Source: Gemmatimonadota bacterium (GTDB taxonomy: Bacteria; Gemmatimonadota; Gemmatimonadetes; Gemmatimonadales; GWC2-71-9). Taken from it: a stretch of DNA of 64,000 nt. Below, one piece after another: positions 38,992 through 63,085 of the stretch. Every line of letters begins with the position of its first letter. Within the stretch, counting starts at the first letter, position 1. The stretch is taken from positions 202,275 through 266,274 of the forward strand of contig SHZU01000004.1 in the NCBI GenBank assembly GCA_009692115.1. The letters are read 5' to 3'. The notes under the pieces were generated by a model that saw only the letters and a list, made by a program, of their open reading frames with translations, searched no databases and was not told the origin of the DNA. The translations under genes were made by a program, and so were the position numbers.

Positions 38992-40290
38992 TCAGTCCAG
39001 TTCGTCGAGTGATTTGGGCCAGTCTTGCTTGAGCAAACGCGACAGCGCCCGGTCCGCCAAGAGCCGGCCCTCGGTTTGGCACCGGGCACAATAGTTGGTT
39101 TCGTTGTCGGCGTAGCGAATCCGTTGCACCGGGCTGCCACAGTCGGGGCAGGGTTGCCTGAACTTGCCGTGGACCGCCATGCCAGGACGGAACGCGGTGA
39201 CCCTAGCGGGAAAGGCACCGTTCCGATCCTTGGTGAGGAGGTCGGTCCACTCGGTCAGGATCCGCCGGCAGGCGTGGTAGAGCCTGGTGACCTCCGGTGC
39301 GTCGAGATTCCGGATCAACTGGAGCGGTGAGATCCGGGCCGCATGGAGGATTTCATCGGAGAACGAGTTGCCGATGCCATCGAAGGTCTGGGGATCGGTA
39401 AGCGCTCGCTTGAGGGTGTGGTTGCCCCGAACCGGCCGTTCGGCGAACACGGCCTCGCTCGCGTGGAGTACGTCGAGTCCGCCCCGCTCGAACTGATCGA
39501 GCGCGGCGTGATCCTCGGCTACGTGCAGGGAGGCGCGTCGCTTGCTCCCGGCCTCGGTCAGGAGCAGGGTCCCGGTGCCGAAATCGAATGCGGCCAGAGC
39601 AGACTTTGCCCCGATGGCGGTCCCGGCCGGCTTCCAATGCAACCGGCCGGCGATCATCAGGTGAATCACCAGCCAGGCCTCGTGGTCGAGCCGGATGGCG
39701 AGCCGTTTCCCGATTCGCTGAACCTCGGCAACCCGGTGCCCGTGGCAACTCGCGAGCGTGGCCTCGACCGTCCGGAGGAGAAACGGGGTCTTCAGCCGAA
39801 CGGTGAGCAGGGTTTGCCCGAGAATCCGTTCGCGCAAGGCGTCACGATAGTTGACGATGATCGCGCCCCGCCACCCACGGCGCTTCCGTTGCTCGGCCAA
39901 GAGTGCGAGGTGTTCGGCGTTGACCTCGGGAATGACCAACGGCACGTCGGATGCGAGGCGGAACGGGCTCGTGTTGGTGACCACGACGGTTCCGGCACCG
40001 GCCCAGAGGGGCTCGATGGTGGTGGCGGCCCCGGTATCGAGGGCCGAGAACGCGAGCGGGAGGCCGGTTGGGCGGTCACTTGGCTGGACGATCAAATCGC
40101 CGATACGGCTGGGGAGTGGGGTGGTTTCTCGCCACCGGACCACGTCGGCGTAGCGCCGCCCGGCGCTGGCGGCCGAGGCGGCGAGGTATTGAATCTCGGA
40201 CCAGGGGTGGTGTTCGAGCCGGCGGACTAATTTCTGGCCCACGGTGCCGGTGGCGCCCAGAATGGCGACGGGGATTTTGCTGGCGGTCAT
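38992..40290 (-). pseudogene. In-frame chimera of truncated aspartate-semialdehyde dehydrogenase and truncated Fpg/Nei glycosylase
   Basis: The frame is open for 432 codons but joins two unrelated enzymes. Residues 1-147 are the NADP domain of archaeal/fungal-type aspartate-semialdehyde dehydrogenase (GATGTVG at 12-18) and end at GAIIVN, immediately before the NPNC motif with the catalytic cysteine. Residues 148-432 are Fpg/Nei DNA glycosylase starting at YRDALRERILG. They lack the first residues (MPELPEVE), including catalytic Pro2 and Glu3, but keep the helix-two-turn-helix (FDGIGNSFSDEIL) and a zinc finger (C381, C384, C401, C404). Both activities should be lost. The junction is at 39849/39850. 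An attenuator-like leader precedes it. Confidence 0.85.
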
Positions 40291-40310
40291 GAGGTCTCCG
40301 AACAGCGAAA

Positions 40311-40338
40311 CCCCCGCGCATCGGATCGAGGCGCGGGG
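40311..40338 (-). terminator. Attenuator terminator hairpin upstream of asd
   Basis: The reverse-strand stem CCCCGCGC/GCGCGGGG (40331-40338 with 40312-40319) has an 11-nt loop and is followed by GTTTC. It lies between the leader peptide stop and the asd ATG. The U-run is short, so termination strength is uncertain. Confidence 0.6.
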
Positions 40339-40367
40339 CGGTGGTGTTCGAGTTATTCACGAACCCG

Positions 40368-40448
40368 TCAGTAACGCCCGTTGCCCCGGCCACCGGTCAT
40401 GGTGGCCCGCATGGTCGTCGTGGTCATGGACGGTGAGTAACTGAACAT
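40368..40448 (-). CDS. Threonine/methionine-rich leader peptide of asd
   Basis: A 26-codon ORF on the asd transcript (19 codons from an internal ATG at 40427). It reads MFSYSPS and then MTTTTMRATMTGG, ending in GRGNGRY. Six Thr and four Met codons lie close together, like the ThrL peptide of enterobacteria. The Thr/Met codons sit just before and inside a hairpin, GGCCACC with GGTGGCC (40388-40407). The distal arm plus the following bases (GCCGGGGC, 40383-40390) can instead pair with the 5' arm of the terminator, giving the classical pause/antiterminator/terminator arrangement. No strong ribosome-binding site is visible. Confidence 0.65.
   Translation of the reverse strand: MFSYSPSMTTTTMRATMTGGRGNGRY
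40388..40407 (-). promoter_or_regulatory. Pause (1:2) hairpin of the asd attenuator
   Basis: Perfect 7-bp stem GGCCACC/GGTGGCC with loop ATGACC, overlapping the Thr/Met codons of the leader peptide. Confidence 0.6.
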
Positions 40449-40579
40449 GTCAGGCAAGGTATTGAACCGGCCAAAATCGCGCCATGCTTGCGCGGTCTGG
40501 GGTTCGGCGTTATCGTCTGGTCACAATTGTTCACCGTGGCGTTTTGTCGGCGTATTGCTGGCCACGTTAATCCACAGCT

Positions 40580-40608
40580 AAAAAGCCACGCGTCCGCGTG
40601 TCTTTTTT
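40580..40608 (+). terminator. Terminator-like hairpin in the thrC leader
   Basis: CACGCG/CGCGTG with a 2-nt loop is extended by AAAAAG pairing with CTTTTTT across one mismatch, and ends in six T. It lies 68 bp before the thrC ATG and about 130 bp from the asd leader start. It can serve as a thrC attenuator or as a bidirectional insulator. Confidence 0.6.
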
Positions 40609-40675
40609 GGCACCGGGCGTTTGTCGTTTCCCGGGCCAGGACGAGCCAGCGGATGGTGGGGCAAGGGGAAAGCCT

Positions 40676-41923
40676 ATGACCGTCGTTTCGCTCCAATCGT
40701 CCACTCGGCCGGTGCCGCTCGCCTGTGCGCACTGTGCCGCCATCCACGAACCCGTCGCGTCCGCCGTGTGCCTGGAGTGTCTCGGGCCGCTCGAACCGGT
40801 CTACCGGGCCGGGCGGACGTTGCCATCCCGTGAAGAGATTGCCAGGCGGGCTCCCTCGATGTGGCGCTACCGCGAGTGGCTCCCGTTCGAGGGCCAGCCG
40901 GTGCATTCCCTCGATACTGGTTTCACGCCACTGGTCGAGGCTCCGCGACTGGCCGCGCGGCTCGGCGTCGCTCGGGTGTGGATCAAGAACGACACGGTGT
41001 CCCACCCGAGTCTCTCGTTCAAGGACCGGGTCGTCGCGTCGGCCATCAACGCCGCCGTTGGCCTGGGTCTCGAGACGGTTGCCTGCGCCTCAACCGGCAA
41101 CCTGGCGATTGCCGTCGCGGCCCATGCGGCCCGGGCCGGCCTGCCGGCCTGGGTGTTGGTGCCGGAGGACTTGGAGCCCGCCAAGATTCTGGCCAGTGCG
41201 GTGCATGGGGCCCGGGTGCTTCGGATCCAGGGCACCTACGACGACGTGAACCGGTTGTGCGTCCAGCTCGCGGACCGGTATGGGTGGGGGATCGTGAACG
41301 TGAATCTCCGGCCCTACTACGGCGAGGGCTCCAAGACCGTGGCATTCGAGATCGCCGAGCAGTTGGGGTGGCGGTTGCCGACCGCGGTGGTCTCCCCGAT
41401 GGCGGGCGGCTCGCTCTTGAGCAAACTGCACAAGGGTTTCGGGGAAATCCTCGATGCAGAGTTGGCCACCGGCGATCGTCCCCGGCTGTTCGGCGCGCAG
41501 GCGTCGGGATGTGCCCCTATTGTGCGGGCGCTCGAGGCGGGGGAAAGCCGGATCACGCCGGTCCAACCGAACACGATTGCCCGGTCGCTCGCCATCGGGG
41601 CTCCCGCGGACGGAGCCCGGGCGCTCCAAGCGATCCGTTCCAGCGGGGGGTACGCCGCCGCGGTCTCGGATCCGGATTTGATCGACGCCATTCGGGTCCT
41701 GGCCGAGACCTCGGGTGTGTTTGCCGAAACAGCCGGGGGAGTGACCTGTGCGGCCGCCCTGGCGCTTGCGCGGGCGGGTCAGTTCGCGCCCAGCGACGAA
41801 GTAGTACTTTGCATCACGGCTCACGGGCTGAAGACCCCGGATGCCGTCTCTCCTGACCTGTTTGACCTGCCGATTGCCTCGAGTCGCCTGAGCGACGTGG
41901 CGCGGGTCATTGAATCAGCCTAA
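40676..41923 (+). CDS. thrC: Threonine synthase-family PLP enzyme
   Basis: A 415-residue fold-type II PLP enzyme predicted to convert O-phosphohomoserine to threonine. The N-terminus carries a four-cysteine zinc ribbon (C17, C20, C32, C35) typical of the thrC group of archaea and high-GC bacteria. The PLP lysine is K116 in SLSFKDR, the phosphate loop is CASTGNLAIA and a SPMAGGSLLSK loop follows. ATG 40676 has an AAGGGGA Shine-Dalgarno. The next genes are a CysO-like sulfur carrier and a MoeZ-like activator, so the enzyme could instead be a CysM-type sulfur-accepting paralogue; threonine synthase is the better fit. It diverges from asd. Confidence 0.85.
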   Translation: MTVVSLQSSTRPVPLACAHCAAIHEPVASAVCLECLGPLEPVYRAGRTLPSREEIARRAPSMWRYREWLPFEGQPVHSLDTGFTPLVEAPRLAARLGVARVWIKNDTVSHPSLSFKDRVVASAINAAVGLGLETVACASTGNLAIAVAAHAARAGLPAWVLVPEDLEPAKILASAVHGARVLRIQGTYDDVNRLCVQLADRYGWGIVNVNLRPYYGEGSKTVAFEIAEQLGWRLPTAVVSPMAGGSLLSKLHKGFGEILDAELATGDRPRLFGAQASGCAPIVRALEAGESRITPVQPNTIARSLAIGAPADGARALQAIRSSGGYAAAVSDPDLIDAIRVLAETSGVFAETAGGVTCAAALALARAGQFAPSDEVVLCITAHGLKTPDAVSPDLFDLPIASSRLSDVARVIESA

Positions 41924-61510: not shown

Positions 61511-61596
61511 GGTTGAACATCGCAATATCACTTTACTCCTTATCTAACAGACACTTGCGGTGGCAGTTGCGGGCTGATAATCTGGTTGTTCAACAA
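61511..61596. promoter_or_regulatory. Putative GntR operator region between divergent genes
   Basis: GTTGAACA near 61511 and its inverse TGTTCAAC near 61587, the latter within TTGTTCAACAA, lie in the intergenic region. A TGATAAT near 61575 could be a -10 element of the hydroxylase gene. Support is only from symmetry and position. Confidence 0.35.
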
Positions 61597-61606
61597 AGGA
61601 TTCGCG

Positions 61607-63085
61607 ATGAAGACCCCCCCCGCAACCGGGGCCCGGCGTGGGGCCCAACTCCTGGCTCGGCTCAAGGAGCGCCCCCCGGCACTCTGGCATCGCGGCGAGC
61701 GGATCGAGGATCCTACCACCGCGCCCGGCATCGGGGCGGGCGTCCATACCTTGGCCCGGCTCTACGACCTCCAGTGGACCAATCCGGACGACACCCTCTT
61801 CGACTCTCCCGATATCGGCGCCAAGGTGGGGCGGTCGTTTCAGGTTCCGAAGACGCTGGCCGAGTTGAAGGCCGTGTCCCGCTCGATGGGCCAGTGGGCG
61901 CAACACAGTCTCGGGATGATGGGACGGCTCCCGGACTACATCAACCGGTCGATTACCGGCTATGCGGCCGGCGCCGCGTTTCTCGGCGAGACCGACCCCC
62001 GGTTCGGCGCCAACGCCCGGGCCTACCACGCCTACGTCCGCGATCACGATCTCTGTCTAACCCACACGCTGAGCAGTCCGCAGGCCAACCGATCCGTCCA
62101 TGCGGCCCAGCAGGCCGATCCGTTCCTGGCCGCCAAGGTCAAGGATGAAACCGACGCCGGCATCGTGATCCGCGGTTGCCGGATGCTGGCGACCCTGCCG
62201 GTGTCGGACGAGATCATGGTCTTTCCTTCGACGTTTCTTCGGAACATCGAGGAGGACCAGCGCTACGCCTACGCCCTCTGTCTTCCGACCGATGCGCCCG
62301 GGCTCAAGTTCCAATGCCGGGAAACCGCCGATTACGGCCGCTCGCACTACGATCATCCGTTGGCGTCACGGTTCGAGGAGATGGACGCGGTGGTGTTCTT
62401 CGACGATGTCTTCGTCCCGTGGGAGCGGGTCTTCCTGTACCGCGATGTGCCCCGGTGCAACGCGGCGTACGCCGAGACCGGCGCCTTGGCCAACATGGCC
62501 CACCAAGTGCTGGTCAAGAACATTGCCAAGACGGAGTACCTGCTCGGGCTGGCCTCGCTGATCGTCGACTCGATTGCCATCGATTCCTTCCAGCATGTCC
62601 AGGAAAAGCTGGCCGAAATCTGGATCAATTTGGAAACGATGCGGGCATTCTTGGTGGCCGCGGAGACCGGCGCCGCCATCGACAAGTACGGGGTGATGCG
62701 ACCGGCGTGGGCCCCGCTCGATGCGGCCCGGAATCTCTATCCGCGGCTCTATCCGCGGATGATCGAGATCATCCAGCAACTGGCGGCCTCCGGCCTCGTG
62801 GCGATGCCCACCGAAGCCGACGTCAACGGACCGCTGGCCCCGGAGATCGCCCGGTACTTCCAGGCCGCCCGGCTCGACGCCCTGGAACGAATTCCGCTGT
62901 TTCGCTTGGCGTGGGATACGGCGATCTCGGCATTTGCCAACCGCCAAGTGCTCTATGAGCGCTATTTCTTCGGCGATCCAGTGCGAATGGCCGGGGTCTT
63001 GGTCGCCAACCACGACCGGACCGAGTACATGGACCGGATCCGGTCATTTCTCAAACGGGCCGCCGTCGACGGAGCCGTCGAGTGA
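61607..63085 (+). CDS. HpaB family flavin-dependent 4-hydroxyphenylacetate 3-monooxygenase-type oxygenase
   Basis: A 492-residue FADH2-dependent hydroxylase of the HpaB/4-hydroxybutyryl-CoA dehydratase fold. ATG 61607 follows AAAGGA. Diagnostic pieces are TNPDDTLFDSPDIGAKVG, SLGMMGRLPDYINRSITGYA, DHDLCLTHTLSSPQANRSVH, VIRGCRMLATLPVSDEIMVF, FDDVFVPWERVFLYRDV and NMAHQVLVKN. It needs a flavin reductase partner, which is not in the window. The following dehydrogenase gene starts in the last codons (GTGA at 63082), so the two are coupled. The phenolic substrate is not certain. Confidence 0.88.
   Translation: MKTPPATGARRGAQLLARLKERPPALWHRGERIEDPTTAPGIGAGVHTLARLYDLQWTNPDDTLFDSPDIGAKVGRSFQVPKTLAELKAVSRSMGQWAQHSLGMMGRLPDYINRSITGYAAGAAFLGETDPRFGANARAYHAYVRDHDLCLTHTLSSPQANRSVHAAQQADPFLAAKVKDETDAGIVIRGCRMLATLPVSDEIMVFPSTFLRNIEEDQRYAYALCLPTDAPGLKFQCRETADYGRSHYDHPLASRFEEMDAVVFFDDVFVPWERVFLYRDVPRCNAAYAETGALANMAHQVLVKNIAKTEYLLGLASLIVDSIAIDSFQHVQEKLAEIWINLETMRAFLVAAETGAAIDKYGVMRPAWAPLDAARNLYPRLYPRMIEIIQQLAASGLVAMPTEADVNGPLAPEIARYFQAARLDALERIPLFRLAWDTAISAFANRQVLYERYFFGDPVRMAGVLVANHDRTEYMDRIRSFLKRAAVDGAVE

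Follow-up and report, generated by a model that had tools for sequence, protein, structure and literature searches.

Fusion genes that persist as deletion scars occur in degrading pathways: within an operon that has become dispensable, the ends of genes on the same strand are brought together by an in-frame deletion. The reading frame analyzed here resembles such fusions in that a single in-frame deletion appears to have joined genes on the same strand, and in this case it marks the loss of asd, a gene that is usually essential in diderm bacteria. Its first part is related to the archaeal/eukaryotic-type subfamily of Asd (TIGR00978 / PRK08664), with which it shares the N-terminal NADP half including GATGTVG and about 62–70% identity to Asd proteins of the same genus, but it ends before the catalytic cysteine and, with 139 bits, remains below the cut-off of 301. 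Its second part is similar to the Fpg/MutM-Nei glycosylases (PF01149, PF06831, PF06827) with respect to the H2TH domain, the four-cysteine zinc finger and the predicted MutM fold, but has neither an initiator nor the N-terminal Pro-Glu and stays below the equivalog cut-offs. A further described system, the LysW-dependent alpha-aminoadipate pathway of Thermus and Sulfolobus, has a counterpart in the same genome, with lysW, lysX, lysY, lysZ and lysJ in one cluster and a LysX carrying GSWGR and an Asn-Thr pair (PMC10433800). This cluster differs from the pathway of Thermus and Sulfolobus by a LysW that ends in EDWGQ instead of EDWGE and thus lacks the C-terminal Glu acceptor, and by an EgtC-like Ntn amidohydrolase in the operon; LysK was not seen in the cluster.

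The window, which is the whole stretch of 64,000 nucleotides that was analyzed, is located on contig 4 of a Gemmatimonadota genome (G000; 3.12 Mb, 23 contigs, 97% complete, possibly derived from a metagenome). An earlier note, based on the letters of the window, had described an in-frame Asd-Fpg chimera without either active site. Both claims are borne out. The fused reading frame lies exactly at 38992..40290 on the minus strand and comprises 432 codons without stop or frameshift, with domains from both families. Pfam profiles identified the Semialdhyde_dh NAD-binding domain at residues 8-129 (PF01118, E = 2e-27), Fapy_DNA_glyco at 148-229, H2TH at 279-347 and zf-FPG_IleRS at 379-405; the Asd dimerization domain PF02774 was not found in the fused frame. 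The NCBIfam asd model matched residues 4-147, covering profile positions 2-147 of 350 only, and the match to the fpg model started at profile position 11. The Asd part (39850..40290, minus strand; residues 1-147) consists of the NADP-binding half with its GxTGxVG motif and extends to the first Asn of NPNC. The catalytic cysteine, the dimerization domain and the C-terminal part are missing, whereas the orthologs in three genomes of the same genus (G002, G003 and G004) are full length. The Fpg/Nei-type part (38992..39849, minus strand) retains H2TH and the four zinc-finger cysteines and is devoid of a start codon and of residues 1-9, which include the N-terminal proline nucleophile (Pro2) and Glu3. 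The two parts meet at 39849..39850, where an Asn codon is followed by a Tyr codon (GCG ATC ATC GTC AAC / TAT CGT GAC, read on the minus strand) and about 2.0 kb are absent in comparison with the relatives. At this point asd of the relatives continues with NPNC, of which the fusion keeps the first Asn and loses Pro-Asn-Cys. The fpg genes of the relatives start with (V/M)PELPDI-x-x-Y, and the fusion enters Fpg at the tenth residue. Since each half is about 62–70% identical to the full-length orthologs of the genus, the fusion is far beyond chance. Both activities should be absent by the known mechanisms, because Asd depends on the missing cysteine and Fpg on the missing N-terminal proline nucleophile.

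The ancestral organization can be read from the same-genus genomes. Gene order in G002, G003 and G004 is asd-lysC-fpg on one strand; thrC is divergent upstream of asd in G002 and G003, and the downstream neighbors in G002 and G004 equal those of the window. In the window, the conserved neighbor thrC (40598..41923, plus strand) encodes an intact threonine synthase and marks the locus as orthologous. The intergenic segment that separates thrC from the original start of asd (40291..40597) preserves the divergence found in G002 and G003 and likely still drives the fused gene. The positions equivalent to the two breakpoints are 1987-2012 bp apart in G002, G003 and G004. Because the relatives have the order asd-lysC-fpg, one deletion of about 2.0 kb accounts for both the fusion and the loss of the entire lysC. 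The synteny of the relatives thus strongly supports the single deletion proposed earlier for two genes on the same strand, except that asd and fpg were not ancestral neighbors, as lysC lay between them and was removed whole. In the aligned parental sequences of the relatives the breakpoints share few identical bases and no long homology, and a collapse at a repeat was therefore rejected.

Lineage-specific amino acid changes were compared between the window and its close relative G004, with G002 as outgroup; thrC was compared between the window and G002. The Fpg part displayed 39 window-only versus 13 G004-only changes (p = 0.0004); if further outgroups are required to agree, the excess weakens to p = 0.03-0.05. 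The corresponding counts for the Asd part were 17 and 9. No excess was observed in the flanking peptidase (41:42, window versus G004) or in thrC (30:31, window versus G002). In addition, five positions with at least 95% conservation among 100 homologs are broken in the Fpg part, and only one of these 100 homologs breaks more. This faster evolution and the broken positions make it unlikely that the cell expresses the fused protein and that selection maintains it in a new role, for instance as a non-catalytic DNA-binding protein that combines an Fpg fold with a nucleotide-binding half-domain. Such a role would fit the Fpg part, for which a good fold is predicted (pLDDT values mostly of 80-95, matching MutM/Fpg structures) and which has kept H2TH and the zinc-finger cysteines, and also the preserved upstream region of asd, but the Asd half was modeled at low confidence, with just two Asd rows in the alignment, and the fusion was not found in any second genome among the 41 surveyed. 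The open frame also speaks for a new role: if the 34 excess amino acid changes are taken as neutral, the probability of finding no stop is about 0.2-0.26, and it falls to 0.001-0.02 in a rough estimate that includes indels at an assumed 0.05-0.1 per substitution. An open frame of 432 codons is thus mildly surprising for a neutral gene, and both slow decay and weak selection fit.

The presence or absence of pathway genes was settled by single-family searches. A second asd, which the earlier note had considered as a backup, was not found in the 97%-complete assembly of G000, nor was a C-terminal Asd domain of the TIGR00978 type elsewhere in this genome. The other matches were rejected as two ArgC-type reductases according to NCBIfam (on contig 13 and at C4:268659) and a protein that by sequence resembles DXP reductoisomerase (C3:17311). 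The genome does harbor another fpg, for which the earlier note had proposed a search and which retains an intact PELPE start (C1:326881-327723). Searches of G000 also failed to find lysC (aspartokinase), where a candidate was rejected as a UMP-kinase-like match, as well as dapA, dapB and dapD, with a weak and N-terminal match to TIGR00036 only. Because dapA, dapB, dapD and lysC are gone as well and a LysW-type lysine cluster is present, asd was probably lost together with its pathway rather than backed up by another copy.

The distribution of lysC, asd, dapA, dapB and dapD was surveyed in 41 genomes, i.e. G000 and 40 relatives. All five genes were present in 23 genomes and absent from 15, while three were mixed (G001, G003 and G019). 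The absent set comprises G000, with its half of an asd, and 14 of the 40 relatives (G005, G007, G010-G013, G015-G017, G021, G023, G024, G028 and G032). Some of the 15 genomes are incomplete; G023 (99%, 5 contigs), G024 (97%), G028 (100%), G015 and G005 all fall within 97-100% completeness. DapA-superfamily proteins below the DapA cut-off occur in several of the DAP-minus genomes and were left out of the count. A published report of asd or DAP pathway loss in Gemmatimonadota was not found in the open-access literature. Among the named public records, Gemmatimonadetes MAGs come closest; judging from the record names, at least some of these are apparently lake-derived.

An assembly or binning artefact, in which 2 kb of an asd-lysC-fpg locus still intact in the strain would have been skipped by the assembler, could be suspected in a genome of 23 contigs and 97% completeness that is possibly metagenomic. 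However, the two parts join cleanly and in frame, and the few identical bases shared at the breakpoints are too short for a k-mer collapse. Moreover, dapA, dapB and dapD are missing too, although they reside at other loci in same-genus relatives, and the same five-gene absence recurs in independent genomes. Finally, a mis-assembly does not produce excess amino acid changes in the Fpg part. These observations disfavor the assembly collapse raised in the earlier note and render an artefact very improbable.

We therefore regard the chimera, with a probability of roughly 75%, as a catalytically dead scar of one deletion that was part of a replacement of the lysine pathway. The ancestral locus of this Gemmatimonadota genus, with thrC divergent from asd-lysC-fpg, would have lost about 2.0 kb in a single in-frame event that removed the catalytic half of Asd, the complete aspartokinase gene and nine codons at the start of the Fpg-type gene. 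The lineage would have withstood this loss since its diaminopimelate route to lysine was already gone or disappearing and it possesses a lysine cluster of the LysW (alpha-aminoadipate) type. Within this reading we infer the order of events, the absence of activity and, from gene content, that the LysW cluster makes the lysine of the cell.

The cluster, lysW-lysX-lysY-(EgtC-like)-lysZ-lysJ, is located at G000:C4:267554-272283, about 1.3 kb to the right of the window end. LysX (340 versus 275.6) and LysW (56 versus 53.2) exceed their lysine equivalog cut-offs, LysZ is just below its own (215 versus 223), and LysY has ArgC as its best match, as expected for that superfamily. In LysX, GSWGR and the Asn-Thr pair occur in the expected region and correspond to the signature of alpha-aminoadipate-specific LysX (PMC10433800). 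Within the genus the cluster is present in G000, G003 and G005, which are exactly the three genomes without dapA and dapD. In G001, G002 and G004 dapA and dapD are present, and a PF02774 search detected no LysY. This co-occurrence is what a pathway replacement would be expected to produce, and the lineage has apparently turned to another route of lysine synthesis. G003 contains the LysW cluster together with an intact asd-lysC-fpg and one dapB (L120, L185, L204), whereas dapA and dapD were not found there; it seems to represent the state that preceded the deletion. Of asd-lysC-fpg, only fpg was found in G005. The same-genus series, with full DAP genes in G002 and G004, LysW plus asd-lysC in G003, the scar in G000 and no trace found in G005, allows the replacement to be traced gene by gene. 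The fusion is an ordinary deletion scar, yet it pinpoints where a diderm bacterium lost a pathway that is normally essential, and raises the question of the source of cell-wall DAP in such Gemmatimonadota.

Several genes kept in G000 are odd in this respect. Its mur cluster holds a MurE with the DAP motif DNPR that scores over the DAP-ligase cut-offs, LysA is over its cut-off, and DapF, Hom (G000:C4:2004-2543), ThrB (G000:C2:45336-46268) and ThrC (window 40598-41923) are retained as well. A DNPR-type MurE was found in G000, G005, G023 and G024, and LysA was checked in G000, G005 and G023. A recognized source of aspartate semialdehyde or DAP was not found in G000, and the retained genes count against the preferred reading if neither compound is made. 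It is possible, though less probable, that the deletion is real and the cell scavenges lysine, DAP and threonine, the LysW cluster having another use. MurE, LysA and DapF kept without the upstream genes agree with this, and the LysW cluster was not found at the inspected ArgC-type loci of many DAP-minus genomes outside the genus. A precedent is Fidelibacter multiformis, which depends on external DAP, lysine and muropeptides (PMC11652737). On the other hand, LysX carries the alpha-aminoadipate signature (PMC10433800) and exceeds the lysine equivalog cut-off, and a separate argB/C/D-type set on contig 13 could serve arginine. Mpl-mediated recycling of tripeptides was rejected, as Mpl was not found in G000, where a MurC-type match only was obtained, which also argues against scavenging. 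A more doubtful proposal retains the chimera as the scar of the switch and lets DAP come from an unrecognized route or from other cells, with a nearby LysW variant that may need Pup-like deamidation.

This variant, with the C-terminus EDWGQ, is shared by G000, G003 and G005. The EgtC-like Ntn amidohydrolase has a conserved N-terminal cysteine and lies inside the LysW operon (L124:1555-4330, corresponding to G000:C4:267554-270329; equivalents in L202 and L204). A published LysW ending in Gln was not found in the open-access literature. By analogy to Pup and Dop, the combination may represent a deamidation step, or the amidohydrolase may replace LysK. An HpaB (4-hydroxyphenylacetate 3-monooxygenase) gene is located at 61586-63085 of the window and paaA at L124:6743-7708, past the LysW cluster, which suggests that genes of aromatic catabolism surround the cluster.
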